Counted from the stretch's first letter, positions 16,348 through 57,157 are shown. The stretch: 64,000 bases of DNA from Antedon mediterranea (GCF_964355755.1 NC_092670.1:41031795-41095794); one strand, 5' to 3'. A program made the numbers and translations. The notes: generated from the sequence alone by a model not told the origin.

Positions 16348-16651
16348 AACTTCGCTTTCCTTTTTGATTGAGTTGTTGTTGAGTAAGTAACTTACTTTCA
16401 GCTTTCAGTAGTTGTACGAAACTGGTGTTTGTTTTCAAAAGTATAGAGGGCGGGCAGCAATTTGTTACTGTCCACAGAGATAAAAGTTTTATGATTGATT
16501 GAAGTCGAACTATTCACGTCACAAACATCAAACAATTTTTTTTAAATATTTAAAAGTATAAAAAATTATAAATAATTGAAAAAAAAACTAAATATATAAA
16601 ATGAATAAAAAAATAATAGTAATCAAAAGGATATTAGAAGCTAAATGCAAT
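16348..16651 (-). promoter_or_regulatory. Upstream region of the aquaporin gene
   Basis: About 300 bp between the aquaporin start codon and the tRNA array. It should hold the aquaporin leader and core promoter. I see no clear TATA box at a sensible distance; the distal half is A/T-rich. Confidence 0.35.
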
Positions 16652-17020
16652 GATGTCACATCTCTATGATTCCTGGTTAAACATACTGTATGAATAAAAA
16701 GACGAAAAAAAAAACAGTACTGGCCGATATGGGGCTCGAACCCATGACATTCGCGTTATTAGCACGACGCTCTGCAAACTGAGATAACCGGCCGGTTGGA
16801 TACATAGATGTCACATTTCTATGATTTCTGGTTAAACATACTGTATGACTAAAAAGACGACAAAAATACAGTACTGGCCAATATGGGGTTCGAACCCATG
16901 ACATTCGCGTTATTAGCACGACGTTTTGCCGACTGAGCTAACCGGTCGGTTGGATGTCACATTTCTATGATTCCTGGTTAAACATACTGTATGACTAAAA
17001 AGACGACAAAGGTACAGTAC

Positions 17021-17093
17021 TGGCCGATATGGGGCTCGAACCCATGACATTCGCGTTATTAGCACGACGCTCCGCCGACTGAGCTAACCGGCC
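17021..17093 (-). tRNA. tRNA-Ile(AAU): tRNA-Ile (anticodon AAU)
   Basis: All four stems are kept; the D loop differs from consensus by one base (TCCGCC on the plus strand). A short spacer precedes it: eight bases of the usual ATACATAG segment are missing. Confidence 0.85.
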
Positions 17094-17329
17094 GGTTGGA
17101 TACATAGATGTCACATTTCTATGATTCCTGGTTAAACATACTGTATGACTAAAAAGACGACAAAAGTACAGTACTGGCCGATATGGGGCTCGAACCCATG
17201 AGATTCGCGTTATTAGCACGACGCTCTGCCGACTGAGCTAACCGGCCGGTTGGATACATAGATGTCACATTTCTATGATTACTGGTTAAACATACTGTAT
17301 GACTAAAAAGACGAAAAAAAGTACAGTAC

Positions 17330-17402
17330 TGGCCGATATGGGGCTCGAACCCATGACATTCGCGTTATTAGCACGACGCTCTGCCGACTGAGCTAACCGG
17401 CC
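17330..17402 (-). tRNA. tRNA-Ile(AAU): tRNA-Ile (anticodon AAU), consensus copy
   Basis: Matches the array consensus at every position I checked; a run of seven T follows in the downstream spacer. Confidence 0.88.
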
Positions 17403-17787
17403 GGTTGGATACATAGATGTCACATTTCTATGATTCCTGGTTAAACATACTGTATGACTAAAAAGATGACAAAAATACTGGCCAAAATGGGTTTCGAACC
17501 CATGATATACGCGTTATTAGAACGACATTTTGCCGACTGAGCTAACCGGTCGGTTGGATACATAGATGTCACATTTCTATGATTCCTGGTTAAACATACT
17601 GTATGACTAAAAAGACGAAAAAAAATACAGTATTGGCCGATACGGGGCTCGAACCCATGACATTCGCATTATTAGCACGACGCTCTGCCGACTGAGCTAA
17701 CCGGCCGGTTGGATACATAGATGTCACATTTCTATGATTCATGGTTAAACATACTGTATGACTAAAAAGACGAAAAAAATACAGTAC

Positions 17788-17860
17788 TGGCCGATATGGG
17801 GCTCGAACCCATGACATTCGCGTTATTAGCACGACGCTCTGCCGACTGAAATAACCGGCC
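17788..17860 (-). pseudogene. D-arm-broken tRNA-Ile copy (type example)
   Basis: The D stem GCTC is TTTC, which removes two base pairs and the A-box GC. Many units share this exact change (for example 17942, 19179, 19486, 19640, 20405, 26990, 37280, 39096), so it is an inherited subfamily and not repeated decay. Confidence 0.8.
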
Positions 17861-18252
17861 GGTTGGATACATAGATGTCACATTTCTATGAGTCCTGGTT
17901 ACACATACTGTAGGCCTATGACTAAAAAGAAATTACAGTACTGGCCGATATGGGGCTTGAACCCATGACATTCGCGTTATTAGCACGACGCTCTGCCGAC
18001 TGAAATAACCGGCCGGTTGGATACTAGATGTCACATTTCTATGATTTCTGGTTAAACGTAGTGTATGACTAAAAAGACGAAAAAAAGTACAGTACTGGCC
18101 GATATGGGGCTCGAACCCATGACATTCGCGTTATTAGCACAACGATCTGCCGCCTGAGAGGGCTAACCGGCCGGTTGGATATATAGGTTTCACATTTCTA
18201 TGATTCCTAGTCAAACATACTGTATGACTAAAGACGAAAAAAAATACAGTAC

Positions 18253-18325
18253 TGGCCGATATGGGGCTCGAACCCATGACATTCGCGTAATAAGCATGAC
18301 GATCTGCCGACTGAACTGACCGGCC
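18253..18325 (-). tRNA. Variant tRNA-Ile-like unit with anticodon UAU
   Basis: The anticodon loop reads CTTATTA instead of CTAATAA, giving anticodon UAU, which would read AUA (also Ile). The D stem has a mismatch (GTTC/GATC) and position 8 is C, so it is probably a decayed copy. Confidence 0.5.
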
Positions 18326-18406
18326 GGTTGGATACATAGATATCACGTTTCTATGATTCCTGGTTAAACATACTGTATGACTAAAAAGACGACAAAAGTA
18401 TAATAC

Positions 18407-18479
18407 TGGCCGATATGGGGCTCGAACCCATGACATTCGCGTTATTAGCACGACGCTCTGCCGACTGAGCTAACCGGCC
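18407..18479 (-). tRNA. tRNA-Ile(AAU): tRNA-Ile (anticodon AAU), consensus copy
   Basis: Consensus body; the downstream spacer begins GTATTATAC rather than GTACTGTA. Confidence 0.85.
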
Positions 18480-19793
18480 GGTTGGATACATAGATGTCAC
18501 ATTTCTATGATTCCTGGTTAAACATACTGTATGACTAAAAAGACGACAAAAGTACAGCACTGGCCGATATGGGGCTCGAACCCATGACATTCGCGTTATT
18601 AGCACGACGCTCTGCCGACTGAGCAAACCGGCCGGTTGGATACATAGATGTCACATTTCTATGATTCCTGGTTAAACATACTGTATGACTAAAAAGACGA
18701 CAAAAATACAGTACTGGCCAATATGGGGTTCGAACCCATGACATTCGCGTTATTAGCACGACGTTTTGCCGACTGAGCTAACCGGTCGGTTGGATACATA
18801 GATGTCACATTTCTATGATTCCTGGTTAAACATACTGTATGACTAAAAAGACGAAAAAAAATACAGTACTGGCCGATACGGGGCTCGAACCCATGACATT
18901 CGCATTATTAGCACGACGCTCTGCCGACTGAGCTAACCGGCCGGTTGGATACATAGATGTCACATTTCTATGATTCATGGTTAAACATACTGTATGACTA
19001 AAAAGACGACAAAAGTATAGTACTAGCCGATATGGGGCTCGAACCCATGACATTCGCGTTATTAGCACGACGCTCTGCCGACTGAGCTAACAGGCCGGTT
19101 GGATACATAGATGTCACATTTCTATGATTCCTTGTTAAACATACTGTATGACTAAAAAGACGAAACACAATACAGTACTGGCCGATATGGGGCTCGAACC
19201 CATGACATTCGCGTTATTAGCACGACGCTCTGGCGACTGAAATAACCGGTCGGTTTGATACATATGTCACATTTCTATGATTACTGGTTAAAAATACTGT
19301 ATGACTAAAAAGACGACAAAAATACAGTACTGGCCGATATGGGGCTCGAACCCATGACATTCGCGTTATTAGCACGACGCTCTGCCGACTGAGCTAACCA
19401 GCCGGTTGGATACATATATGTCACATTTATATGATTCCTGGTTAAACATACTGTATGACTAAAAAGACGAAAAAAAATACAGTACTGGCCGATATGGGGC
19501 TCGAACCCATGACATTCGCGTTATTAGCACGACGCTCTGCCGACTGAAATAACCTGCCGGTTGGATACATAGATGTCACATTTCTATGATTCCTGGTTAA
19601 ACATACTGTATGACTAAAAAGACGACAAAAATACAGTATTGGCCGATATGGGGCTCGAACCCATGACATTCGCGTTATTAGCACGACGCTCTGGCGACTG
19701 AAATAACCGGTCGGTTGGATACATAGATGTCACGTTTCTATGATTCCTGGTTAAACATACTGTATGACTAAAAAGACGACAAAAGTACAGTAC

Positions 19794-19866
19794 TGGCCGA
19801 TATGGGGCTCGAACCCATGACATTCGCGTTATTAGCACGACGCTCTGCCGACTGAGCTAACCGGCC
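19794..19866 (-). tRNA. tRNA-Ile(AAU): tRNA-Ile (anticodon AAU), consensus copy
   Basis: Consensus body; the 5' flank has AATCGGCC rather than AACCGGCC. Its partner is at 22398. Confidence 0.86.
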
Positions 19867-20558
19867 GATTGGATACATAGATGTCACGTTTCTATGATTC
19901 CTGGTTAAACATACTGTATGACTAAAAAGACGACAAAAGTACAGTACTAGCCGATATGGGGGCTCGAACCCATGACTTCGCGTTATTAGCACGACGCTCT
20001 GCCGACTGAGCTAACCGGCCGGTTGGATACATAGATGTCACATTTCTATGATTCCTGGTTAAACATACTGTATGACTAAAAAGACGACAAAAATACATTA
20101 CTGGCCGATATGGGGCTCGAACCCATGACATTCGCGTTATTAGCACGACGATCTGCCGACTGAGCTAACCGGTCGGTTGGATACATATGTCACATTTCTG
20201 ATTACTGGTTAAAAATACTGTATGACTAAAAAGACGACAAAAATACAGTACTGGCCGATATGGGGCTCGAACCCATGACATTCGCGTTATTAGCACGACG
20301 CTCTGCCGACTGAGATAACCCGCCGGTTGGATACTAGAAGTCACATTTCTATGATTTCTGGTTAAAGGTACTGTATGACTAAAAAGACGACAAAAATACA
20401 GTACTGGCCGATATGGGGCTCGAACCCATGACATTCGCGTTATTAGCACGACGCTCTGCCGACTGAAATAACCTGCCGGTTGGATACATAGATGTCACAT
20501 TTCTATGATTCCTGGTTAAACATACTGTATGACTAAAAAGACGACAAAAATACAGTAT

Positions 20559-20631
20559 TGGCCGATATGGGGCTCGAACCCATGACATTCGCGTTATTAG
20601 CACGACGCTCTGCCGACTGAGCTAACCGGCC
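20559..20631 (-). tRNA. tRNA-Ile(AAU): tRNA-Ile (anticodon AAU), consensus copy
   Basis: Consensus body; partners at 23163 and 24072. Confidence 0.87.
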
Positions 20632-20934
20632 GGTTGGATACATAGATGTCACATTTCTATGATTCCTGGTTAAACATACTGTATGACTAAAAAATACAGT
20701 ATAGGCCGATATGGGGCTCGAACCCATGACATTCGCGTTATTAGCACGACGCTCTGCCGACTGAGCTAACCGGCCGATTGGATACATAGATGTCACGTTT
20801 CTATGATTCCTCGTTAAACATACTGTATGACTAAAAAGACGACAAAAGTACAGTACTAGCCGATATGGGGGCTCGAACCCATGACTTCGCGTTATTAGCA
20901 CGACGCTCTGCCGACTGAGCTAACCGGCCGGTTG

Positions 20935-23538
20935 GATACATAGATGTCACATTTCTATGATTCCTGGTTAAACATACTGTATGACTAAAAAGACGACAAA
21001 AGTACAGCACTGGCCGATATGGGGCTCGAACCCATGACATTCGCGTTATTAGCACGACGATCTGCCGACTGAGCTAACCGGCCGGTTGGATACATAGATG
21101 TCACATTTCTATGATTCCTGGTTAAACATACTGTATGACTAAAAAGACGACAAAAGTACAGCACTGGCCGATATGGGGCTCGAACCCATGACATTCGCGT
21201 TATTAGCACGACGCTCTGCCGACTGAGCAAACCGGCCGGTTGGATACATAGATGTCACATTTCTATGATTCCTGGTTAAACATACTGTATGACTAAAAAG
21301 ACGACAAAAATACAGTACTGGCCAATATGGGGTTCGAACCCATGACATTCGCGTTATTAGCACGACGTTTTGCCGACTGAGCTAACCGGTCGGTTGGATA
21401 CATAGATGTCACATTTCTATGATTCCTGGTTAAACATACTGTATGACTAAAAAGACGAAAAAAAATACAGTACTGGCCGATACGGGGCTCGAACCCATGA
21501 CATTCGCATTATTAGCACGACGCTCTGCCGACTGAGCTAACCGGCCGGTTGGATACATAGATGTCACATTTCTATGATTCATGGTTAAACATACTGTATG
21601 ACTAAAAAGACGACAAAAGTATAGTACTAGCCGATATGGGGCTCGAACCCATGACATTCGCGTTATTAGCACGACGCTCTGCCGACTGAGCTAACAGGCC
21701 GGTTGGATACATAGATGTCACATTTCTATGATTCCTTGTTAAACATACTGTATGACTAAAAAGACGAAACACAATACAGTACTGGCCGATATGGGGCTCG
21801 AACCCATGACATTCGCGTTATTAGCACGACGCTCTGGCGACTGAAATAACCGGTCGGTTTGATACATATGTCACATTTCTATGATTACTGGTTAAAAATA
21901 CTGTATGACTAAAAAGACGACAAAAATACAGTACTGGCCGATATGGGGCTCGAACCCATGACATTCGCGTTATTAGCACGACGCTCTGCCGACTGAGCTA
22001 ACCAGCCGGTTGGATACATATATGTCACATTTATATGATTCCTGGTTAAACATACTGTATGACTAAAAAGACGAAAAAAAATACAGTACTGGCCGATATG
22101 GGGCTCGAACCCATGACATTCGCGTTATTAGCACGACGCTCTGCCGACTGAAATAACCTGCCGGTTGGATACATAGATGTCACATTTCTATGATTCCTGG
22201 TTAAACATACTGTATGACTAAAAAGACGACAAAAATACAGTATTGGCCGATATGGGGCTCGAACCCATGACATTCGCGTTATTAGCACGACGCTCTGGCG
22301 ACTGAAATAACCGGTCGGTTGGATACATAGATGTCACGTTTCTATGATTCCTGGTTAAACATACTGTATGACTAAAAAGACGACAAAAGTACAGTACTGG
22401 CCGATATGGGGCTCGAACCCATGACATTCGCGTTATTAGCACGACGCTCTGCCGACTGAGCTAACCGGCCGATTGGATACATAGATGTCACGTTTCTATG
22501 ATTCCTGGTTAAACATACTGTATGACTAAAAAGACGACAAAAGTACAGTACTAGCCGATATGGGGGCTCGAACCCATGACTTCGCGTTATTAGCACGACG
22601 CTCTGCCGACTGAGCTAACCGGCCGGTTGGATACATAGATGTCACATTTCTATGATTCCTGGTTAAACATACTGTATGACTAAAAAGACGACAAAAATAC
22701 ATTACTGGCCGATATGGGGCTCGAACCCATGACATTCGCGTTATTAGCACGACGATCTGCCGACTGAGCTAACCGGTCGGTTGGATACATATGTCACATT
22801 TCTGATTACTGGTTAAAAATACTGTATGACTAAAAAGACGACAAAAATACAGTACTGGCCGATATGGGGCTCGAACCCATGACATTCGCGTTATTAGCAC
22901 GACGCTCTGCCGACTGAGATAACCCGCCGGTTGGATACTAGAAGTCACATTTCTATGATTTCTGGTTAAAGGTACTGTATGACTAAAAAGACGACAAAAA
23001 TACAGTACTGGCCGATATGGGGCTCGAACCCATGACATTCGCGTTATTAGCACGACGCTCTGCCGACTGAAATAACCTGCCGGTTGGATACATAGATGTC
23101 ACATTTCTATGATTCCTGGTTAAACATACTGTATGACTAAAAAGACGACAAAAATACAGTATTGGCCGATATGGGGCTCGAACCCATGACATTCGCGTTA
23201 TTAGCACGACGCTCTGCCGACTGAGCTAACCGGCCGGTTGGATACATAGATGTCACATTTCTATGATTCCTGGTTAAACATACTGTATGACTAAAAAATA
23301 CAGTATAGGCCGATATGGGGCTCGAACCCATGACATTCGCGTTATTAGCACGACGCTCTGCCGACTGAGCTAACCGGCCGATTGGATACATAGATGTCAC
23401 GTTTCTATGATTCCTCGTTAAACATACTGTATGACTAAAAAGACGACAAAAGTACAGTACTAGCCGATATGGGGGCTCGAACCCATGACTTCGCGTTATT
23501 AGCACGACGCTCTGCCGACTGAGCTAACCGGCCGGTTG
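20935..23538 (-). repeat. tRNA array block 3: 2604-bp higher-order repeat, copy 2
   Basis: 17 units starting at 21011, 21165, 21319, 21474, 21628, 21783, 21935, 22090, 22244, 22398, 22552, 22706, 22856, 23009, 23163, 23307 and 23461, each 2604 bp from its partner in block 2. Confidence 0.9.
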
Positions 23539-25392
23539 GATACATAGATGTCACATTTCTATGATTCCTGGTTAAACATACTGTATGACTAAAAAGACGA
23601 CAAAAATACATTACTGGCCGATATGGGGCTCGAACCCATGACATTCGCGTTATTAGCACGACGATCTGCCGACTGAGCTAACCGGTCGGTTGGATACATA
23701 AGTCACATTTCTGATTACTGGTTAAAAATACTGTATGACTAAAAAGACGACAAAAATACAGTACTGGCCGATATGGGGCTCGAACCCATGACATTCGCGT
23801 TATTAGCACGACGCTCTGCCGACTGAGATAACCCGCCGGTTGGATACTAGAAGTCACATTTCTATGATTTCTGGTTAAAGGTACTGTATGACTAAAAAGA
23901 CGACAAAAATACAGTACTGGCCGATATGGGGCTCGAACCCATGACATTCGCGTTATTAGCACGACGCTCTGCCGACTGAAATAACCTGCCGGTTGGATAC
24001 ATAGATGTCACATTTCTATGATTCCTGGTTAAACATACTGTATGACTAAAAAGACGACAAAAATACAGTATTGGCCGATATGGGGCTCGAACCCATGACA
24101 TTCGCGTTATTAGCACGACGCTCTGCCGACTGAGCTAACCGGCCGGTTGGATACATAGATGTCACATTTCTATGATTCCTGGTTAAACATACTGTATGAA
24201 TAAAAAGACGAAAAAAAATACAGTACTGGCCGATATGGGGCTCGAACCCATGACATTCGCGTTATTAGCACGACGCTCTGCCGACTGAGCTAACCGACCG
24301 GCCGGTTGGATACTAGATGTCACATTTCTATGATTCCTGGTTAAACATACTGTATGACTAAAAAGACGAAAAAAAATACAGTACTGGCCGATACGGGGCT
24401 CGAACCCATGACATTCGCATTATTAGCACGACGCTCTGCCGACTGAGCTAACCGGCCGGTTGGATACATAGATGTCACATTTCTATGATTCATGGTTAAA
24501 CATACTGTATGACTAAAAAGACGACAAAAGTATAGTACTAGCCGATATGGGGCTCGAACCCATGACATTCGCGTTATTAGCACGACGCTCTGCCGACTGA
24601 GCTAACCGGCCGGTTGGATACATAGATGTCACATTTCTATTATTCCAGGTTAAACATACTGTATGACTAAAAAGACGACAAAAATACAGTACTGGCCGAT
24701 ATGGGGCTCGAACCCATGACATTCGCGTTATTAGCACGACGCTCTGCCGACTGAGCTAACAGGCCGGTTGGATACATAGATGTCACATTTCTATGATTCT
24801 TGGTTAAACATACTGTATGACTAAAAAGACGAAACAAAATACAGTACTGGCCGATATGGGGCTCGAACCCATGACATTCGCGTTATTAGCACGACGCTCT
24901 GGCGACTGAAATAACCGGTCGGTTTGATACATATGTCACATTTCTATGATTACTGGTTAAAAATACTGTATGACTAAAAAGACGACAAAAATACAGTACT
25001 GGCCGATATGGGGCTCGAACCCATGACATTCGCGTTATTAGCACGACGCTCTGCCGACTGAGCTAACCGGCCGGTTGTATACATATATGTCACATTTATA
25101 TGATTCCTGGTTAAACATACTGTATGACTAAAAAGACGAAAAAAAATACAGTACTGGCCGATATGGGGCTCAAACCCATGACATTCGCGTTATTAGCACG
25201 ACGCTCTGCCGACTGAAATAACCTGCCGGTTGGATACATAGATGTCACATTTCTATGATTCCTGGTTAAACATACTGTATGACTAAAAAGGCGACAAAAG
25301 TATAGTACTGGCCGATATGGGGCTCGAACCCATGACATTCGCGTTATTAGCACGACGCTCTGCCGACTGAGCTAACCGGCCGATTGGATACA
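23539..25392 (-). repeat. tRNA array block 4: 909-bp duplication and partial third copy
   Basis: Units start at 23615, 23765, 23918, 24072, 24227, 24385, 24539, 24693, 24848, 25000, 25155 and 25309. The first four repeat 22706-23163 at 909 bp (six monomers). From 24385 the order of variants resembles 18870/21474 onward, so this is a rearranged partial third copy of the 2604-bp repeat. Confidence 0.85.
25000..25072 (-). tRNA. tRNA-Ile(AAU): tRNA-Ile (anticodon AAU), consensus copy
   Basis: Consensus body. The corresponding unit in blocks 2 and 3 (19331, 21935) has C4 changed to T. Confidence 0.86.
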
Positions 25393-26227
25393 TAGATGTC
25401 ACGTTTCTATGATTCCTGGTTAAACATACTGTATGACTAAAAAGACGACAAAAGTACAGTACTAGCCGATATGGGGGCTCGAACCCATGACTTCGCGTTA
25501 TTAGCACGACGCTCTGCCGACTGAGCTAACCGGCCGGTTGGATACATAGATGTCACATTTCTATGATTCCTGGTTAAACATACTGTATGACTAAAAAGAC
25601 GACAAAAATACATTACTGGCCGATATGGGGCTCGAACCCATGACATTCGCGTTATTAGCACGACGATCTGCCGACTGAGCTAACCGGTCGGTTGGATACA
25701 TATGTCACATTTCTGATTACTGGTTAAAAATACTGTATGACTAAAAAGACGACAAAAATACAGTACTGGCCGATATGGGGCTCGAACCCATGACATTCGC
25801 GTTATTAGCACGACGCTCTGCCGACTGAAATAACCTGCCGGTTGGATACTAGAAGTCACATTTCTATGATTTCTGGTTAAAGGTACTGTATGACTAAAAA
25901 GACGACAAAAATACAGTATTGGCCGATATGGGGCTCGAACCCATGACATTCGCGTTATTAGCACGACGCTCTGCCGACTGAGCTAACCGGCCGGTTGGAT
26001 ACATAGATGTCACATTTCTATGATTCCTGGTTAAACATACTGTATGAATAAAAAGACGAAAAAAAATACAGTACTGGCCGATATGGGGCTCGAACCCATG
26101 ACATTCGCGTTATTAGCACGACGCTCTGCCGACTGAGCTAACCGGCCGGTTGGATACTAGATGTCACATTTCTATGATTCCTGGTTAAACATACTGTATG
26201 ACTAAAAAGACGACAAAAATACAGTAC

Positions 26228-26300
26228 TGGCCGATATGGGGCTCGAACCCATGACATTCGCGTTATTAGCACGACGCTCTGCCGACTGAGCTAACCGGCC
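26228..26300 (-). tRNA. tRNA-Ile(AAU): tRNA-Ile (anticodon AAU), consensus copy
   Basis: Consensus body; duplicated at 31534. Confidence 0.87.
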
Positions 26301-26681
26301 GGTTGGATACATAGATGTCACATTTCTATTATTCCTGGTTAAACATACTGTATGACTAAAAAGACGACAAAAATACATTACTGGCCGATATGGGGCTCGA
26401 ACCCATGACATTCGCGTTATTAGCACGACGCTCTGCCGACTGAGCTGACCGGCCTGACCGGCCGGTGGATACTAGAGGTCACATGTCTATGATTTCTGGT
26501 TAAACGTACTATGACTAAAAAGACAGTACTGGCCGATATGGGCCTCGAACCCATGACATTCGCGTTATTAGCACGACGATCTGCCGACTGAGCTAACCGG
26601 TCGGTTGGATACATATGTCACATTTCTATGATTACTGGTTAAAAATACTGTATGACTAAAAAGACGACAAAAATACAGTAC

Positions 26682-26754
26682 TGGCCGATATGGGGCTCGA
26701 ACCCATGACATTCGCGTTATTAGCACGACGCTCTGCCGACTGAGCTAACCGGCC
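26682..26754 (-). tRNA. tRNA-Ile(AAU): tRNA-Ile (anticodon AAU), consensus copy
   Basis: Consensus body; duplicated at 31988. Confidence 0.87.
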
Positions 26755-27598
26755 GGTTGGATACAGATATGTCACATTTCTATGATTCCTGGTTAAACAT
26801 ACTGTATGACTAAAAAGACGACAAAAATACAGTACTGGCCGATATGGGGCTCGAACCCATAACATTCGCGTTATTAGCACGACGCTCTGCCGACTGAGCT
26901 AACCGGCCGGTTGGATACATAGATGTCACATTTCTATGATTCCTGGTTAAACATACTGTATGACTAAAAAGACGAAAAAAATACAGTACTGGCCGATATG
27001 GCGCTCGAACCCATGACATTCGCGTTATTAGCACGACGCTCTGGCGACTGAAATAACCTGCCGGTTGGATACATAGATGTCACATTTCTATGATTCCTGG
27101 TTAAACATACTGTATGACTAAAAAGACGACAAAAGTACAGTACTGGCCGATATGGGGCTCGAACCCATGACATTCGCGTTATTAGCACGACGCTCTGCCG
27201 ACTGAGCTAACCGGCCGGATAGATGTCACATTTCTATTATTCCTGGTTAAACACACTGTATGACTAAAAAGACGACAAAAATACAGTACTGGCCGATATG
27301 GGGCTCGAACCCATGACATTCGCGTTATTAGCACGACGCTCTGCCGACTGAGCTAACAGGCCGGTTGGATACATAGATTTCACATTTCTATTATTCTTGG
27401 TTAAACATACTGTATGACTAAAAAGACGAAAAAAAATAAAGTACTGGCCGATATGGGGCTCGAACCCATGACATTCGCGTTATTAGCACGACGCTCTGCC
27501 GACTGAAATAACCGGCCGGTTGGATACTAGATGTCACATTTCTATGATTTCTGGTTAAACATACTGTATGACCAAAAAGACGAAAAAAAGTACAGTTC

Positions 27599-27655
27599 TG
27601 GCCGATATGGGGCTCGAACCCATGACATTCGCGTTATTAGCACGACGCTCTCCGG
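27599..27655 (-). pseudogene. Truncated tRNA-Ile unit lacking the 5' acceptor/D region
   Basis: About 18 nt of the tRNA 5' part are missing. The same truncated form recurs at 30326, 32905, 36538 and 38356, so it spread by duplication. Confidence 0.85.
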
Positions 27656-27886
27656 TTGGATATATAGGTTTCATATTTCTATGATTCCTAGTAAAACATA
27701 CTGTATGACTAAAGACAAAAAAAAATACAGTACTGGCCGATATGGGGCTCGAACCCATGACATTCGCGTTATTGGCACGACGCTCTGCCGACTGAAATAA
27801 CCGGCCGGTTGGATACTAGATGTCAGATTTCTATGATTTCTGGTTAAACATACTGTATGACTAAAAAGACGACAAAAATACAGTAC

Positions 27887-27959
27887 TGGCCGATATGGGG
27901 CTCGAACCCATGACATTCGCGTTATTAGCACGACGCTCTGCCGACTGAGCTAACCGGCC
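27887..27959 (-). tRNA. tRNA-Ile(AAU): tRNA-Ile (anticodon AAU), consensus copy
   Basis: Consensus body; duplicated at 33193. Confidence 0.87.
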
Positions 27960-28803
27960 GGTTGGATACATAGATGTCACATTTCTATGATTCCTGGTTA
28001 AACATACTGTATGACTAAAAAATACAGTATAGGCCATAATGGGGCTCGAACCCATGACATTCGCGTTATTAGCACGACGCTCTGTCGACTGAGCTAACCG
28101 GCCGGCTGGATACATAGATGTCACATTTCTATGATTCATGGTTAAACATACTGTATGACTAAAAAGACGAAAAAAAATACAGCACTGGCCGATATGGGGG
28201 CTCGAACCCATGACATTCGCTTTATTAGCACAACGCTCTGCCGACTGAGCTAACCGGACGGTTGGATACATAGATGTCACATTTCTATGATTCCTAGTTA
28301 AACATACTGTATGACTAAAAAGACGAAAAAAAATACAGCACTGGCCGATATGGGGCTCGAACCCATGACATTCGCGTTATTAGCACGACGCTCTGCCGAC
28401 TGAGCTAACCGGCCGGTTGGATACATACATGTCACATTTCTATGATTCCTAGTTAAACATACTGTATGACTAAAAAGACGAAAAAAGTATAGTACTGGCC
28501 GATATGGGGCTCGAACCCATGACATTCGCGTTATTAGCACGACGCTCTGCCGACTGAGCTAACCGGCCGGTTGGATACATAGATGTCACATTTCTATGAT
28601 TCATGATTAAAAATACTGTATGACTAAAAAGACGACAAAAATACAGTACTGGCCGATATGGGGCTCGAACCCATGACATTCGCGTTATTAGCACGACGCT
28701 CTGCCGACTGAGCTAACCGGCCGGTTGGATACATAGATGTCACATTTCTATGATTCCTGGTTAAACATACTGTATGACTAAAAAGACGACAAAAATACAG
28801 TAC

Positions 28804-28876
28804 TGGCCGATATGGGGCTCGAACCCATGACATTCGCGTTATTAGCACGACGCTCTGCCGACTGAGCTAACCGGCC
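28804..28876 (-). tRNA. tRNA-Ile(AAU): tRNA-Ile (anticodon AAU), consensus copy
   Basis: Consensus body; duplicated at 34110. The run 28342-28876 has four consecutive intact units. Confidence 0.87.
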
Positions 28877-30460
28877 GATTGGATACATAGATGTCACATT
28901 TCTATTATTCCTGGTTAAACATACTGTATGACTAAAAAGACGACAGAAATACATTACTGGCCGATATGGGGCTCGAACCCATGACATTCGCGTTATTAGC
29001 ACGACCCTCTGCCGACTGAGCTGACCGGCCGGTTGGATACTAAAGGTCACATGTCTATGATTTCTGGTTAAACGTACTATGACTAAAAATACAGTACTGG
29101 CCGCTGTGGGGCTCGAACCCATGACATTCGCGTTATTAGCACGACGCTCTGCCGACTGAGCTAACCGGCCGGTTGGTTACATAGATGTCACATTTCTATG
29201 ATTCCTGGTTAAACATACTGTATGACTAAAAAGACGACAAAAATACAGTACTTGCCATTATGGGGCTCGAACCCATGACATTCGCGTTATTAGCACGACG
29301 CTCTGCCGACTGAGCTAACCGGCCGGTTGGATACATAGATGTCACATTTCTATTATTCCTGGTTAAACATACTGTATGACTAAAAAGACGACAGAAATAC
29401 ATTACTGGCCGATATGGGGCTCGAACCCATGACATTCGCGTTATTAGCACGACGCTCTGCCGACTGAGCTGACCGGCCGGTTGGATACTAAAGGTCACAT
29501 GTCTATGATTTCTGGTTAAACGTACTATGACTAAAAATACAGTACTGGCCGCTGTGGGGCTCGAACCCATGACATTCGCGTTATTAGCACGACGCTCTGC
29601 CGACTGAGCTAACCGGCCGGTTGGTTACATAGATGTCACATTTCTATGATTCCTGGTTAAACATATACTGTATGACTAAAAAGACGACAAAAATACAGTA
29701 CTGGCCGATATGGGGCTCGAACCCATGACATTCGCGTTATTAGCACGACGCTCTGCCGACTGAGCTAACCGGCCGGTTGGATACATAGATGTCACATTTC
29801 TATGATTCCTGGTTAAACATACTGTATGACTAAAAAGACGAAAAAAAATACAGTACTGGCCGATATGGGGCTCGAACCCATGACATTCGCGTTATTAGCA
29901 CGACGCTCTGCCGACTGAAATAACCTGCCGGTTGGATACATAGATGTCACATTTCTATGATTCCTGGTTAAACATACTGTATGACTAAAAAGACGACAAA
30001 TGTATAGTACTGGCCGATATGGGACTCGAACCCATGACATTCGCGTTATTAGCACGACGCTCTGCCGACTGAGCTAACCGGCCGGTTGGATACATAGATT
30101 TCACATTTCTATTATTCCTGGTTATACATACTGTATGACTAAAAAGACGAAAAAAAATACAGTACTGGCCGATATGGGGCTCGAACCGATGACATTCGCG
30201 TTATTAGCACGACGCTCTGCCGACTGAAACAACCGGCCGGTTGGATACTAGATGTCACATTTCTATGATTTCTGGTTAAACGTAGGCCTACTGTATGACT
30301 AAAAAGACGAAAAAAAGTACAGTTCAGGCCGATATGGGGCTCGAACCCATGACATTCGCGTTATTAGCACGACGCTCTCCGGTTGGATATATAGGTTTCA
30401 CATTTCTATGATTCCTAGTAAAACATACTGTATGACTAAAGACGAAAAAAAATACAGTAC

Positions 30461-30533
30461 TGGCCGATATGGGGCTCGAACCCATGACATTCGCGTTATT
30501 AGCACGACGCTCTGCCGACTGAGCTAACCGGCC
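30461..30533 (-). tRNA. tRNA-Ile(AAU): tRNA-Ile (anticodon AAU), consensus copy
   Basis: Consensus body following a truncated unit; eight T downstream. Confidence 0.86.
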
Positions 30534-30698
30534 GGTTGGATACATAGATGTCACATTTCTATGATTCCTGGTTAAACATACTGTATGAATAAAAAGACGA
30601 CAGAAATACAGCACTGGCCGATATGGGGCTCGAACCCATGACATTCGCGTTATTAGCACGACGCTCTGCCGACTGAGCTAACCGGCCGATTGGATACA

Positions 30699-33600
30699 TA
30701 GATGTCACGTTTCTATGATTCCTGGTTAAACATACTGTATGACTAAAAAGACGACAAAAGTACAGTACTAGCCGATATGGGGGCTCGAACCCATGACTTC
30801 GCGTTATTAGCACGACGCTCTGCCGACTGAGCTAACCGGCCGGTTGGATACATAGATGTCACATTTCTATGATTCCTGGTTAAACATACTGTATGACTAA
30901 AAAGACGACAAAAATACATTACTGGCCGATATGGGGCTCGAACCCATGACATTCGCGTTATTAGCACGACGATCTGCCGACTGAGCTAACCGGTCGGTTG
31001 GATACATATGTCACATTTCTGATTACTGGTTAAAAATACTGTATGACTAAAAAGACGACAAAAATACAGTACTGGCCGATATGGGGCTCGAACCCATGAC
31101 ATTCGCGTTATTAGCACGACGCTCTGCCGACTGAAATAACCTGCCGGTTGGATACTAGAAGTCACATTTCTATGATTTCTGGTTAAAGGTACTGTATGAC
31201 TAAAAAGACGACAAAAATACAGTATTGGCCGATATGGGGCTCGAACCCATGACATTCGCGTTATTAGCACGACGCTCTGCCGACTGAGCTAACCGGCCGG
31301 TTGGATACATAGATGTCACATTTCTATGATTCCTGGTTAAACATACTGTATGAATAAAAAGACGAAAAAAAATACAGTACTGGCCGATATGGGGCTCGAA
31401 CCCATGACATTCGCGTTATTAGCACGACGCTCTGCCGACTGAGCTAACCGGCCGGTTGGATACTAGATGTCACATTTCTATGATTCCTGGTTAAACATAC
31501 TGTATGACTAAAAAGACGACAAAAATACAGTACTGGCCGATATGGGGCTCGAACCCATGACATTCGCGTTATTAGCACGACGCTCTGCCGACTGAGCTAA
31601 CCGGCCGGTTGGATACATAGATGTCACATTTCTATTATTCCTGGTTAAACATACTGTATGACTAAAAAGACGACAAAAATACATTACTGGCCGATATGGG
31701 GCTCGAACCCATGACATTCGCGTTATTAGCACGACGCTCTGCCGACTGAGCTGACCGGCCTGACCGGCCGGTGGATACTAGAGGTCACATGTCTATGATT
31801 TCTGGTTAAACGTACTATGACTAAAAAGACAGTACTGGCCGATATGGGCCTCGAACCCATGACATTCGCGTTATTAGCACGACGATCTGCCGACTGAGCT
31901 AACCGGTCGGTTGGATACATATGTCACATTTCTATGATTACTGGTTAAAAATACTGTATGACTAAAAAGACGACAAAAATACAGTACTGGCCGATATGGG
32001 GCTCGAACCCATGACATTCGCGTTATTAGCACGACGCTCTGCCGACTGAGCTAACCGGCCGGTTGGATACAGATATGTCACATTTCTATGATTCCTGGTT
32101 AAACATACTGTATGACTAAAAAGACGACAAAAATACAGTACTGGCCGATATGGGGCTCGAACCCATAACATTCGCGTTATTAGCACGACGCTCTGCCGAC
32201 TGAGCTAACCGGCCGGTTGGATACATAGATGTCACATTTCTATGATTCCTGGTTAAACATACTGTATGACTAAAAAGACGAAAAAAATACAGTACTGGCC
32301 GATATGGCGCTCGAACCCATGACATTCGCGTTATTAGCACGACGCTCTGGCGACTGAAATAACCTGCCGGTTGGATACATAGATGTCACATTTCTATGAT
32401 TCCTGGTTAAACATACTGTATGACTAAAAAGACGACAAAAGTACAGTACTGGCCGATATGGGGCTCGAACCCATGACATTCGCGTTATTAGCACGACGCT
32501 CTGCCGACTGAGCTAACCGGCCGGATAGATGTCACATTTCTATTATTCCTGGTTAAACATACTGTATGACTAAAAAGACGACAAAAATACAGTACTGGCC
32601 GATATGGGGCTCGAACCCATGACATTCGCGTTATTAGCACGACGCTCTGCCGACTGAGCTAACAGGCCGGTTGGATACATAGATTTCACATTTCTATTAT
32701 TCTTGGTTAAACATACTGTATGACTAAAAAGACGAAAAAAAATAAAGTACTGGCCGATATGGGGCTCGAACCCATGACATTCGCGTTATTAGCACGACGC
32801 TCTGCCGACTGAAATAACCGGCCGGTTGGATACTAGATGTCACATTTCTATGATTTCTGGTTAAACATACTGTATGACCAAAAAGACGAAAAAAAGTACA
32901 GTTCTGGCCGATATGGGGCTCGAACCCATGACATTCGCGTTATTAGCACGACGCTCTCCGGTTGGATATATAGGTTTCATATTTCTATGATTCCTAGTAA
33001 AACATACTGTATGACTAAAGACAAAAAAAAATACAGTACTGGCCGATATGGGGCTCGAACCCATGACATTCGCGTTATTGGCACGACGCTCTGCCGACTG
33101 AAATAACCGGCCGGTTGGATACTAGATGTCAGATTTCTATGATTTCTGGTTAAACATACTGTATGACTAAAAAGACGACAAAAATACAGTACTGGCCGAT
33201 ATGGGGCTCGAACCCATGACATTCGCGTTATTAGCACGACGCTCTGCCGACTGAGCTAACCGGCCGGTTGGATACATAGATGTCACATTTCTATGATTCC
33301 TGGTTAAACATACTGTATGACTAAAAAATACAGTATAGGCCATAATGGGGCTCGAACCCATGACATTCGCGTTATTAGCACGACGCTCTGTCGACTGAGC
33401 TAACCGGCCGGCTGGATACATAGATGTCACATTTCTATGATTCATGGTTAAACATACTGTATGACTAAAAAGACGAAAAAAAATACAGCACTGGCCGATA
33501 TGGGGGCTCGAACCCATGACATTCGCTTTATTAGCACAACGCTCTGCCGACTGAGCTAACCGGACGGTTGGATACATAGATGTCACATTTCTATGATTCC

Positions 33601-35540
33601 TAGTTAAACATACTGTATGACTAAAAAGACGAAAAAAAATACAGCACTGGCCGATATGGGGCTCGAACCCATGACATTCGCGTTATTAGCACGACGCTCT
33701 GCCGACTGAGCTAACCGGCCGGTTGGATACATACATGTCACATTTCTATGATTCCTAGTTAAACATACTGTATGACTAAAAAGACGAAAAAAGTATAGTA
33801 CTGGCCGATATGGGGCTCGAACCCATGACATTCGCGTTATTAGCACGACGCTCTGCCGACTGAGCTAACCGGCCGGTTGGATACATAGATGTCACATTTC
33901 TATGATTCATGATTAAAAATACTGTATGACTAAAAAGACGACAAAAATACAGTACTGGCCGATATGGGGCTCGAACCCATGACATTCGCGTTATTAGCAC
34001 GACGCTCTGCCGACTGAGCTAACCGGCCGGTTGGATACATAGATGTCACATTTCTATGATTCCTGGTTAAACATACTGTATGACTAAAAAGACGACAAAA
34101 ATACAGTACTGGCCGATATGGGGCTCGAACCCATGACATTCGCGTTATTAGCACGACGCTCTGCCGACTGAGCTAACCGGCCGATTGGATACATAGATGT
34201 CACATTTCTATTATTCCTGGTTAAACATACTGTATGACTAAAAAGACGACAGAAATACATTACTGGCCGATATGGGGCTCGAACCCATGACATTCGCGTT
34301 ATTAGCACGACCCTCTGCCGACTGAGCTGACCGGCCGGTTGGATACTAAAGGTCACATGTCTATGATTTCTGGTTAAACGTACTATGACTAAAAATACAG
34401 TACTGGCCGCTGTGGGGCTCGAACCCATGACATTCGCGTTATTAGCACGACGCTCTGCCGACTGAGCTAACCGGCCGGTTGGTTACATAGATGTCACATT
34501 TCTATGATTCCTGGTTAAACATACTGTATGACTAAAAAGACGACAAAAATACAGTACTTGCCATTATGGGGCTCGAACCCATGACATTCGCGTTATTAGC
34601 ACGACGCTCTGCCGACTGAGCTAACCGGCCGGTTGGATACATAGATGTCACATTTCTATTATTCCTGGTTAAACATACTGTATGACTAAAAAGACGACAG
34701 AAATACATTACTGGCCGATATGGGGCTCGAACCCATGACATTCGCGTTATTAGCACGACGCTCTGCCGACTGAGCTGACCGGCCGGTTGGATACTAAAGG
34801 TCACATGTCTATGATTTCTGGTTAAACGTACTATGACTAAAAATACAGTACTGGCCGCTGTGGGGCTCGAACCCATGACATTCGCGTTATTAGCACGACG
34901 CTCTGCCGACTGAGCTAACCGGCCGGTTGGTTACATAGATGTCACATTTCTATGATTCCTGGTTAAACATATACTGTATGACTAAAAAGACGACAAAAAT
35001 ACAGTACTGGCCGATATGGGGCTCGAACCCATGACATTCGCGTTATTAGCACGACGCTCTGCCGACTGAGCTAACCGGCCGGTTGGATACATAGATGTCA
35101 CATTTCTATGATTCCTGGTTAAACATACTGTATGACTAAAAAGACGAAAAAAAATACAGTACTGGCCGATATGGGGCTCGAACCCATGACATTCGCGTTA
35201 TTAGCACGACGCTCTGCCGACTGAAATAACCTGCCGGTTGGATACATAGATGTCACATTTCTATGATTCCTGGTTAAACATACTGTATGACTAAAAAGAC
35301 GACAAATGTATAGTACTGGCCGATATGGGACTCGAACCCATGACATTCGCGTTATTAGCACGACGCTCTGCCGACTGAGCTAACCGGCCGGTTGGATACA
35401 TAGATTTCACATTTCTATTATTCCTGGTTATACATACTGTATGACTAAAAAGACGAAAAAAAATACAGTACTGGCCGATATGGGGCTCGAACCGATGACA
35501 TTCGCGTTATTAGCACGACGCTCTGCCGACTGAGCTGACC
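30699..35540 (-). repeat. tRNA array block 6: 5306-bp higher-order repeat, copy 2
   Basis: 32 units starting at 30769, 30923, 31073, 31226, 31381, 31534, 31688, 31836, 31988, 32142, 32296, 32450, 32596, 32751, 32905 (truncated), 33040, 33193, 33337, 33492 (74 nt), 33648, 33802, 33956, 34110, 34264, 34404, 34558, 34712, 34852, 35008, 35163, 35317 and 35472. The identity with block 5 stops inside the last unit, where the sequence switches to the type of unit 34712. Confidence 0.9.
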
Positions 35541-36825
35541 GGCCGGTTGGATACTAAAGGTCACATGTCTATGATTTCTGGTTAAACGTACTATGACTAA
35601 AAATACAGTACTGGCCGCTGTGGGGCTCGAACCCATGACATTCGCGTTATTAGCACGACGCTCTGCCGACTGAGCTAACCGGCCGGTTGGTTACATAGAT
35701 GTCACATTTCTATGATTCCTGGTTAAACATATACTGTATGACTAAAAAGACGACAAAAATACAGTACTGGCCGATATGGGGCTCGAACCCATGACATTCG
35801 CGTTATTAGCACGACGCTCTGCCGACTGAGCTAACCGGCCGGTTGGATACATAGATGTCACATTTCTATGATTCCTGGTTAAACATACTGTATGACTAAA
35901 AAGACGAAAAAAAATACAGTACTGGCCGATATGGGGCTCGAACCCATGACATTCGCGTTATTAGCACGACGCTCTGCCGACTGAAATAACCTGCCGGTTG
36001 GATACATAGATGTCACATTTCTATGATTCCTGGTTAAACATACTGTATGACTAAAAAGACGACAAATGTATAGTACTGGCCGATATGGGACTCGAACCCA
36101 TGACATTCGCGTTATTAGCACGACGCTCTGCCGACTGAGCTAACTGGCCGGATAGATGTCACATTTCTATTATTCCTGCTTAAACATACTGTATGACTAA
36201 AAAGACGACAAAAATACAGTACCGGCCGATATGGGGCTCGAACCCATGACATTCGCGTTATTAGCACGACGCTCTGCCGACTGAGCTAACCGGCCGGTTG
36301 GATACATAGATTTCACATTTCTATTATTCCTGGTTATACATACTGTATGACTAAAAAGACGAAAAAAAATACAGTACTGGCCGATATGGGGCTCGAACCG
36401 ATGACATTCGCGTTATTCGCACGACGCTCTGCCGACTGAAACAACCGGCCGGTTGGATACTAGATGTCACATTTCTATGATTTCTGGTTAAACGTAGGCC
36501 TACTGTATGACTAAAAAGACGAAAAAAAGTACAGTTCTGGCCGATATGGGGCTCGAACCCATGACATTCGCGTTATTAGCACGACGCTCTCCGGTTGGAT
36601 ATATAGGTTTCACATTTCTATGATTCCTAGTAAAACATACTGTATGACTAAAGACGAAAAAAAATACAGTACTGGCCGATATGGGGCTCGAACCCATGAC
36701 ATTCGCGTTATTAGCACGACGCTCTGCCGACTGAAATAACCGGCCGGTTGGATACTAGATGTCACATTTCTATGATTTCTGGTTAAACATACTGTATGAC
36801 TAAAAAGACGACAAAAATACAGTAC

Positions 36826-36898
36826 TGGCCGATATGGGGCTCGAACCCATGACATTCGCGTTATTAGCACGACGCTCTGCCGACTGAGCTAACCGGCC
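36826..36898 (-). tRNA. tRNA-Ile(AAU): tRNA-Ile (anticodon AAU), consensus copy
   Basis: Consensus body; duplicated at 38644. Confidence 0.87.
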
Positions 36899-37741
36899 GG
36901 TTGGATACATAGATGTCACATTTCTATGATTCCTGGTTAAACATACTGTATGACTAAAAAATACAGTATTGGCCGATATGGGGCTCGAACCCATGACATT
37001 CGCGTTATTAGCACGACGCTCTGCCGACTGAGCTAACCGGCCGGTTGGTTACATAGATGTCACATTTCTATGATTCCTGGTTAAACATACTGTATGACTA
37101 AAAAGACGACAAAAATACAGCACTGGCCAATATGGGGCTCGAACCCATGACATTCGTGTTATTAGCACGACGCTCTGCCGACTGAGCTAACCGGCCGGTT
37201 GGATACATAGATGTCACATTTCTATGATTCCTGGTTAAACATACTGTATGACTAAAAAGACGAAAAAAAAATACAGTACTGGCCGATATGGGGCTCGAAC
37301 CCATGACATTCGCGTTATTAGCACGACGCTCTGCCGACTGAAATAACCTGCTGGTTGGATACATAGATGTCACATTTCTATGATTCCTGGTTAAACATAC
37401 TGTATGACTAAAAAAACGACAAAAATACAGTACTGGCCGATATGGGGCTCGAACCCATGACATTCGCGTTATTAGCACGACGCTCTGCCGACTGAGCTAA
37501 CCGGCCGGTTGGATACATAGATGTCACATTTCTATGATTCCTGGTTAAACATACTGTATGACTAAAAAGACGAAAAAAATACAGTACTGGCCAATATGGG
37601 GTTCGAACCCATGACATTCGCGTTATTAACACGACGTTTTGCCGACTGAGCTAACCGGTCGGTTGGATACATAGATGTCACATTTCTATGATTCCTGGTT
37701 AAACATACTGTATGACTAAAAAGACGACAAAGGTACAGTAC

Positions 37742-37814
37742 TGGCCGATATGGGGCTCGAACCCATGACATTCGCGTTATTAGCACGACGCTCTGCCGAC
37801 TGAGCTAACCGGCC
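37742..37814 (-). tRNA. tRNA-Ile(AAU): tRNA-Ile (anticodon AAU), consensus copy
   Basis: Consensus body; the neighbouring unit 37588 is of the altered-acceptor type also seen at 16875, 18715 and 21319. Confidence 0.86.
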
Positions 37815-39249
37815 GGTTGGATACATAGATGTCACATTTCTATGATTCCTGGTAAACATACTGTATGACTAAAAAGACGACAAATGTACAGTACTGGCCG
37901 ATATGGGGCTCAAACCCATGACATTCGCGTTATTAGCACGACGCTCTGCCGACTGAGCTAACCGGCCGGATAGATGTCACATTTCTATTATTCCTTGTTA
38001 AACATACTGTATGACTAAAAAGACGACAAAAATACAGTACCGGCCGATATGGGGCTCGAACCCATGACATTCGCGTTATTAGCACGACGCTCTGCCGACT
38101 GAGCTAACCGGCCGGTTGGATACATAGATTTCACATTTCTATTATTCCTGGTTATACATACTGTATGACTAAAAAGACGAAAAAAAATACAGTACTGGCC
38201 GATATGGGGCTCGAACCGATGACATTCGCGTTATTAGCACGACGCTCTGCCGACTTAAACAACCGGCCGGTTGGATACTAGATTTCACATTTCTATGATT
38301 TCTGGTTAAACGTAGGCCTACTGTATGACTAAAAAGACGAAAAAAAGTACAGTTCTGGCCGATATGGGGCTCGAACCCATGACATTCGCGTTATTAGCAC
38401 GACGCTCTCCGGTTGGATATATAGGTTTCACATTTCTATGATTCCTAGTAAAACATACTGTATGACTAAAGACGAAAAAAAATACAGTACTGGCCGATAT
38501 GGGGCTCGAACCCATGACATTCGCGTTATTAGCACGACGCTCTGCCGACTGAAATAACCGGCCGGTTGGATACTAGATGTCACATTTCTATGATTTCTGG
38601 TTAAACATACTGTATGACTAAAAAGACGACAAAAATACAGTACTGGCCGATATGGGGCTCGAACCCATGACATTCGCGTTATTAGCACGACGCTCTGCCG
38701 ACTGAGCTAACCGGCCGGTTGGATACATAGATGTCACATTTCTATGATTCCTGGTTAAACATACTGTATGACTAAAAAATACAGTATTGGCCGATATGGG
38801 GCTCGAACCCATGACATTCTCGTTATTAGCACGACGCTCTGCCGACTGAGCTAACCTGCCGGTTGGATACATAGATGTCACATTTCTATTATTCCAGGTT
38901 AAACATACTGTATGACTAAAAAGACGACAAAAATACAGTATTGGCCGATATGGGGCTCGAACCCATGACATTCGCGTTATTAGCACGACGCTCTGCCGAC
39001 TGAGCTAACCGGTCGGTTGGATACATAGATGTCACATTTCTATGATTCCTGGTTAAAAATACTGTATGACTAAAAAGACGACAAAAATACAGTATTGGCC
39101 GATATGGGGCTCGAACCCATGACATTCGCGTTATTAGCACGACGCTCTGGCGACTGAAATAACCGGTCGGTTGGATACATAGATGTCACGTTTCTATGAT
39201 TCCTGGTTAAACATACTGTATGACTAAAAAGACGACAAAAGTACAGTAC

Positions 39250-39322
39250 TGGCCGATATGGGGCTCGAACCCATGACATTCGCGTTATTAGCACGACGCT
39301 CTGCCGACTGAGCTAACCGGCC
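39250..39322 (-). tRNA. tRNA-Ile(AAU): tRNA-Ile (anticodon AAU), consensus copy
   Basis: Consensus body, all stems intact. Confidence 0.87.
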
Positions 39323-39713
39323 GGTTGGATACATAGATGTCACGTTTCTATGATTCCTGGTTAAACATACTGTATGACTAAAAAAGACGACAAAAGTATA
39401 GTACTGGCCGATATGGGGCTCGAACCCATGACATTCGCGTTATTAGCACGACGCTCTGCCGACTGATCTAACCGGCCGGTTGGATACTAGATGTCACATT
39501 TCTATGATTCCTAGTTAAACATACTGTATGACTAAAAAAACGAAAAAAAAATACAGTATTGGCCGATATGGGGCTCGAACCCATGACATTCGCGTTATTA
39601 GCACGACGCTCTGCCGACTGAGCTAACCGGCCGGTTGGATACATAGATGTCACATTTCTATGATTTCTGGTTAAACGTACTGTATGACTAAAAAGACGAC
39701 AAAAGTACAGTAC

Positions 39714-39786
39714 TGGCCGATATGGGGCTCGAACCCATGACATTCGCGTTATTAGCACGACGCTCTGCCGACTGAGCTAACCGGCC
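39714..39786 (-). tRNA. tRNA-Ile(AAU): tRNA-Ile (anticodon AAU), consensus copy
   Basis: Consensus body, all stems intact. Confidence 0.87.
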
Positions 39787-39867
39787 GGTTGGATACATAG
39801 ATGTCACATTTCTATGATTACTGGTTAAACATACTGTATGACTAAAAAGACGACAAAAATACAGTAT

Positions 39868-39940
39868 TGGCCGATATGGGGCTCGAACCCATGACATTCG
39901 CGTTATTAGCACGACGCTCTGCCGACTGAGCTAACCGGCC
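39868..39940 (-). tRNA. tRNA-Ile(AAU): tRNA-Ile (anticodon AAU), last complete unit
   Basis: Consensus body at the distal edge of the array. Beyond it only a partial unit remains (40022-40040), after which unique sequence begins. Confidence 0.87.
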
Positions 39941-40040
39941 GGTTGGATACGTTGATGTCACGTTTCTATGATTCCTGGTTAAACATACTGAATGACTAAA
40001 AAGACGACAAAAACACATTTCTGGTCGATATGTGGCGAAC

Positions 40041-53258: not shown

Positions 53259-53405
53259 CCTTTAAGAATTTAACAAACATTTTAATGTCAAAGGTCAAAT
53301 GCTTTTCCATTGGGAATTTATTGACAGTATGCGAACACAATCCAGTTTCTGTGGACGTGTACAGAGTTCATACAGATTCATTGTGAAATTGTTAGGTTAC
53401 ACCAT
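53259..53405 (-). promoter_or_regulatory. EXTL3: EXTL3 5' leader with upstream ORFs
   Basis: An acceptor TTTGTATTTCAG ends at 53406, so the leader probably continues in an upstream exon. In the 147-nt leader I see three upstream ATGs: a two-codon ORF directly after the acceptor, a 28-codon ORF, and one that overlaps the main start in another frame. They may damp translation. Confidence 0.5.
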
Positions 53406-56593: not shown

Positions 56594-57157
56594 CCTGTAC
56601 AGTAGTATACAGAGGATAAACCTAGGTTAATCTATGCCTGTACAGTAGTATACAGAGGATAAACCTAGGTTAATCTATGCCTGTACAGTAGTATACAGAG
56701 GATAAACCTAGGTTAATCTATGCCTGTACAGTAGTATACAGAGGATAAACCTAGGTTAATCTATGCCTGTACAGTAGTATACAGAGGATAAACCTAGGTT
56801 AATCTATGCCTGTACAGTAGTATACAGAGGATAAACCTAGGTTAATCTATGCCTGTACAGTAGTATACAGAGGATAAACCTAGGTTAATCTATGCCTGTA
56901 CAGTAGTATACAGAGGATAAACCTAGGTTAATCTATGCCTGTACAGTAGTATACAGAGGATAAACCTAGGTTAATCTATGCCTGTAGTATACAGAGGATA
57001 AACCTAGGTTAATCTATGCCTGTACAGTAGTATACAGAGGATAAACCTAGGTTAATCTATGCCTGTACAGTAGTATACAGAGGATAAACCTAGGTTAATC
57101 TATGCCTGTAGTATACAGAGGATAAACCTAGGTTAATCTATGCCTGTAGTATACAGA
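56594..57157. repeat. 43-bp minisatellite, about 13 copies
   Basis: Unit contains CTGTACAGTAGTATACAGAG and GATAAACCTAGGTTAATCTA; three copies lack the six bases ACAGTA. AACCTAGGTT within each unit is a perfect 10-bp palindrome. Confidence 0.93.

Follow-up and report, generated by a model that had tools for sequence, protein, structure and literature searches.

In Antedon mediterranea, a single tRNA-Ile(AAU) gene has probably been amplified in place into a satellite-like array that would constitute a redundant reserve of tRNA-Ile genes. The array forms a block of approximately 23 kb within the window, by which we mean the whole 64-kb stretch of DNA analysed, and its monomer consists of a single 73-base tRNA gene and a spacer (Table 1). 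TRF reported a 154-bp period with 153.5 copies and 91% matches, and ARAGORN called 141 tRNA-Ile(aat) genes in the window, every one on the minus strand, and none in the rest of the window outside the array. To reduce the bias of the tRNA callers, a permissively set profile was used to extract the gene bodies. It recovered 153, among which 150 have a length of exactly 73 nt, and the spacers measure 62-87 bp (mode 81). The coordinates, monomer length, copy number and AAU anticodon given in a preliminary description of this DNA were all reproduced by TRF, ARAGORN, Rfam and profile extraction. The copy number of 153 is a count from one assembly, and 94 of 152 units are distinct. We regard it as extremely improbable that the assembly has expanded a true array that is much smaller; the two internal duplications, being more than 99% identical, could be an assembly error, but the 94 distinct units, the unique flanks on both sides, the chromosome-scale contigs and the similar arrays elsewhere argue against such an expansion, and about 100 units are left even if both duplicates are removed.

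The commonest copy in the array is a complete pol III gene, with an A box, a B box, a cloverleaf and a T-run terminator. On folding, the consensus adopts a cloverleaf, and a common variant with changes in the acceptor and D stems does not. The two features by which a functional tRNA-Ile(AAU) gene is recognised, i.e. a cloverleaf above the threshold of the tRNA model and the anticodon AAT, were found in 145 of the 153 units (Rfam RF00005, gathering score 29 bits; best score 65.8, most intact copies 63.4) and in 149 units, respectively. The B-box pattern is matched by 149/153 units and the A-box pattern by 101/153, and a run of at least four T lies within 40 nt downstream in all 152 units that have a further unit behind them, mostly starting 8-9 nt past the gene. 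All 21 stem pairs are intact in 69 units, in agreement with the 65-70 estimated earlier, and 43 of the 153 do not differ from the consensus. The complete set of pol III tests was passed by 62 of the 153 units, each of which has both internal boxes and a T-run terminator; together with the 145 units that pass Rfam, this speaks against the array being nearly all pseudogenes, the outcome that the preliminary description had named as telling against its own reading. As an intact unit holds both internal boxes and, about 8 nt past the gene, a terminator of its own, unit-by-unit transcription of the intact copies by pol III is plausible on sequence grounds.

Table 1 Features of the window (positions counted from its first base) and tRNA arrays at other places in the genome (C1 to C8).
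Feature	Position	Strand	Unit or extent	Basis
tRNA-Ile(AAU) array, 153 head-to-tail units	16652..40036	-	~154 bp	TRF, ARAGORN, Rfam, profile extraction
Right array edge, diverged and truncated partial unit	39941..40036	-		sequence
Example intact unit, tRNA-Ile gene identical to consensus, first unit in transcription direction	39868..39940	-		ARAGORN, Rfam 63.4 bits
A box of example unit (TAGCTCAGTCGG)	39922..39933	-		sequence, pattern test
Anticodon AAT of example unit	39905..39907	-		ARAGORN
B box of example unit (GGTTCGAGCCC)	39879..39889	-		sequence, pattern test
Spacer 3' of example unit, array-private type	39787..39867	-	81 bp	spacer search, extraction
T5 terminator in spacer of example unit	39855-39859	-		sequence
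Recent internal duplication, 35 units	25132..30295, copy at 30438-35601 (offset 5306)			25 mismatches in 5164 bp
Recent internal duplication, 17 units	18293..21108, copy at 20897-23712 (offset 2604)			21 mismatches in 2816 bp
Aquaporin-like gene, first-exon ORF, ATG at 16329	16072..16404	-	~320 bp from left array edge	ORF
MIP-matching exon, aquaporin-like	6457-6810	-		Pfam MIP
EXTL3 (exostosin-like 3) large exon, right-hand neighbour	51033..53261	-		PDB match E 2.8e-155; Pfam PF03016
Minisatellite	14118-14683		61 bp x 9	
Minisatellite	42892-43437		45 bp x 12	
Minisatellite	56594-57148		43 bp x 13	
Minisatellite	59719-60534		22 bp x 37	
Minisatellite, runs off window	61840-64000		149 bp x 14.5	
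Lys(UUU) array	C8		~175 bp	ARAGORN
Lys(CUU) array	C3		146 bp	ARAGORN
Gly(UCC) array	C2		137 bp	ARAGORN
Cys(GCA) array	C2		137 bp	ARAGORN
Pro array, AGG, CGG and TGG mixed	C1		~160 bp	ARAGORN
Pro array, mainly UGG	C6		220 bp	ARAGORN
Leu(AAG/UAG) arrays, two places	C3		~184 bp	ARAGORN
Leu(CAG) arrays, two places	C7		~250 bp at one of them	ARAGORN
Leu(UAA) array	C5		155 bp	ARAGORN
His arrays	C1 and C4		~242 and 216 bp	ARAGORN
Putative intron-containing Leu(CAA) array	C8		240 bp	by eye, unnamed by ARAGORN
Putative intron-containing Arg(UCU) array	C5		205 bp	by eye, unnamed by ARAGORN

Distinct substitution variants per site are equally frequent in the gene and in the spacer of the Ile array (0.99 vs 0.98), and changes per site amount to 0.030 in the gene vs 0.037 in the spacer. 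Distinct length changes are fewer in the gene (one deletion and two insertion columns) than in the spacer (12 and 6), which hints either at some constraint on the gene or at the A/T homopolymers of the spacer. Within the gene, the anticodon and T arms are less variable than the acceptor and D arms (p 0.005, for regions picked post hoc and related, non-independent copies). The equal substitution variants and the internal duplications are the properties of a satellite, i.e. a long tandem array with unequal exchange whose monomers are individually unconstrained. The equal base change in gene and spacer and the recent duplications therefore indicate satellite-like evolution of the copies around a consensus that is still a valid gene, and the pattern would be the expected residue of unequal exchange and segment duplication. 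The earlier phrase of a tRNA gene turned satellite fits these observations, the monomer being made of the gene and its private spacer. Strong methylation decay was rejected, as the excess of CpG transitions is not significant (12/17 CpG vs 13/26 other G/C sites, p 0.22, with low power).

The whole genome (354.4 Mb in 18 contigs) was searched for close Ile(AAU) matches using a 30-mer that spans the anticodon and T arms, two mismatches at most being allowed. Since 145 of the 150 matches lie in the window and five outside it, approximately 97% of the close Ile(AAU) matches of the genome sit in the array, and in gene number the array bears out the suggestion that it could be a dominant tRNA-Ile source. 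Four of the five dispersed genes equal the array consensus in all 73 nt; three of these lie on C3 near 37.79 Mb and the fourth on C2. The fifth gene, on C3 near 37.81 Mb, differs in one T-loop base in the ARAGORN output. The five genes have T-run terminators and perfect or near-perfect bodies, and their flanks are unrelated to the array spacer; the three C3 genes share AGACAT upstream and GGTAA followed by T runs downstream. With the array spacer as the query, a search suggested in the preliminary description and run here on the whole genome, no match was found outside the Ile array. A tRNA-derived SINE or SINE array was rejected as the nature of the block, given that the spacer has no dispersed copies and that the units stand in register, head to tail.

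Given the five sound genes outside it, the array is probably not required for ordinary needs, and such redundancy would explain how individual copies can drift although the consensus is kept functional by exchange. The same five genes, including the C3 trio with its shared flank motifs, are also what would be expected if they made all tRNA-Ile and the array were silenced heterochromatin, a mere by-product of amplification. We consider this possible but doubtful. The finding that per-copy substitution is not reduced in the gene relative to the spacer is consistent with an inert block, as is the silencing of a tandem tRNA cluster of Arabidopsis in most tissues (PMC12308677). However, the consensus is fully functional by sequence and terminators stand behind every unit, the CpG transitions carry no significant excess as a mark of germline methylation at the low power noted above, and the Leu(UAA) array of the same genome shows clear gene conservation. 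We therefore favour a gene reserve, part of which may be transcribed, over an inert satellite.

The array lies directly 5' of the first exon of an aquaporin-like gene, to which the first-exon ORF and the MIP exon are both inferred to belong; the array, this gene and EXTL3 are on the minus strand throughout. This position, together with the surplus of B boxes over A boxes and the boundary role proposed for the human 1q23.3 tRNA tandem repeat (PMC4041453), would suit a block of TFIIIC sites that separates the aquaporin-like gene from EXTL3. Such a function is nevertheless very unlikely, as 153 copies far exceed what an insulator needs and similar arrays of many tRNA types occur at other places. 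The window is also rich in minisatellites unrelated to the array (Table 1). Short repeats with the B-box-like GGTTCAATCC were seen at window positions 41748-41846 and 46125-46171, and are possibly remnants of tRNA-derived elements.

The Ile array had been presented by implication as unique, which did not hold: the same genome contains at least a dozen further compact arrays, almost every one devoted to the tRNAs of a single amino acid, and Hydractinia arrays have been published (PMC11067881). Apart from the Lys(CUU) array, which surfaced in another search, the arrays were sought with a pattern that pairs two B boxes at the distance of one repeat, in B-box forms that largely exclude the Ile array itself. 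Paired B boxes at periods of 132-192 bp gave 539 + 426 matches vs 1 + 2 for the control, those at periods of 194-254 bp gave 113 + 83 vs 0 + 2, and another B-box form gave 127 + 141 vs 15 + 3. Pieces of the matched places were read and their tRNAs called by ARAGORN; the tally, drawn from the matches listed and from a subset of B-box forms and periods, is a lower bound. At least eight amino acids are represented (Ile, Lys, Gly, Cys, Pro, Leu, His and, by eye, Arg). Most arrays hold a single isoacceptor, and the C1 Pro and C3 Leu arrays mix isoacceptors of one amino acid; the C1 His piece has calls on both strands, plus single Asn and Trp calls. The spacers of the arrays seen are unrelated to each other, except those of the two C3 Leu(AAG/UAG) blocks. 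A chance match to the B-box pattern, the 85-bp satellite at C2:10333500-10335500 (10.33 Mb), contains no tRNA and was discarded.

Several of these arrays allow the gene to be compared with its own spacer, with the reservation that the p values are rough because the copies within an array are related. In variants per site, the Lys(UUU) array (gene 1.19 vs spacer 1.13) and the Cys array (0.79 vs 0.75) resemble the Ile array. In the Leu(UAA) array, by contrast, the gene is approximately seven times more conserved than its spacer (changes per site 0.0155 vs 0.104, variants 0.23 vs 0.62; p 0.00014); these figures come from the larger sample of 60 units, in which the conservation seen at first persisted. 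Conservation of the C6 Pro(UGG) gene, seen in a small sample, was reversed in a larger one and was dropped. Only 6 of the 38 units of the Cys array (C2:14180000-14186000) have a run of at least four T within 40 nt of the gene, in contrast to the other sampled arrays; units of this array may thus be read through or silent. The presence of the anticodons AGG, CGG and TGG in one repeat set of the Pro array at C1 30.276-30.299 Mb shows that anticodon switches happen inside an array, and the clearly related spacers of the Leu(AAG/UAG) arrays at C3 11.56 Mb and 14.01 Mb, 2.4 Mb apart, show that an array was copied, beyond the gene alone. In the Lys(CUU) array (C3:8099000-8103000), ARAGORN called two units with tta, an anticodon that would decode a stop codon. 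A dispersed tRNA-Val-like family on C1 (TAGCTCAGTCGTCTGAGCGTCGTGTTAACAACACG...) resembles a tRNA-derived SINE.

We propose that one tRNA-Ile(AAU) gene, together with some 81 bp of flanking DNA, was multiplied at its own site to 153 units, presumably through unequal exchange and the duplication of segments, and that the resulting array is now a satellite in its mode of change, subject to concerted evolution. Approximately 40% of the copies are predicted to be individually transcribable, and part of them may indeed be transcribed, while the remaining copies would drift towards pseudogenes without visible cost. The array would then serve as a large stock of redundant tRNA-Ile genes, resembling a 5S rRNA array, beside the five dispersed genes, and many other tRNA types of this genome would have undergone the same process. 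A stage-specific role of the Ile array, as reported for Xenopus and the Arabidopsis SYY cluster, is put forward as a hypothesis only. It is rather unlikely, in our judgement, that most tRNA genes lie in compact single-isoacceptor satellites as part of a two-tier system of the 5S kind, in which arrays would supply a stage of high demand (oogenesis or the early embryo) and a few dispersed genes the adult cells.

Tandem blocks of one tRNA have so far been clearly described in few organisms, for instance the hydroid Hydractinia and the amoeba Entamoeba, which are the closest precedents in that order. The head-to-tail repeats with homogenised spacers of the Ile array, and the placement of several tRNA types of the genome in tandem arrays, are the features of this group. 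In Hydractinia, all 20 amino acids are reported to have tRNA genes in tandem arrays, with spacers longer than the 81 bp of the Ile array and the approximately 65-170 bp of the other sampled arrays (PMC11067881). In Entamoeba, nearly all tRNA genes are in tandem arrays, homogenised by concerted evolution and of unclear function; their units hold up to five different tRNA genes, as opposed to one gene per unit here, and the genes of E. histolytica and E. dispar are separated by short tandem repeats (PMC2652664). Very large tRNA gene clusters are also known from Nematostella, where 89% of tDNAs are clustered and clusters reach 50 or more, and from zebrafish and stickleback, but in Nematostella and zebrafish neighbouring genes mostly differ in amino acid, whereas the arrays described here are nearly all of one (PMC2888827). 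The SYY and Pro clusters of Arabidopsis likewise consist of tandem tRNA genes with drifting copies, and the SYY cluster is a model for the tissue-restricted use of an otherwise silent array; however, it is a plant cluster with a mixed Ser/Tyr/Tyr unit and fewer copies than the Ile array (PMC12308677). The human 1q23.3 VNTR is a copy-variable tandem repeat of tRNA genes (9-43 copies), proposed as a CTCF boundary, with a 7.3-kb unit in place of one of about 154 bp (PMC4041453). The oocyte-type tRNA genes of Xenopus, a vertebrate, share the tandem arrangement and can be switched on in the embryo (PMC11500080, a commentary). The kind of array is therefore already known, if rarely described; what sets the present case apart is the shortness and simplicity of the units, together with a measured difference between arrays in the constraint on single copies.

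With nearly all copies of one tRNA gene in one block and five elsewhere, the Ile array offers a direct entry to tRNA gene redundancy, and it also bears on how concerted evolution holds copies together. The relaxed Ile array and the conserved Leu(UAA) array in one genome provide a built-in control. Natural unit-specific variants tag many of the copies, and tRNA sequencing could show which units work.
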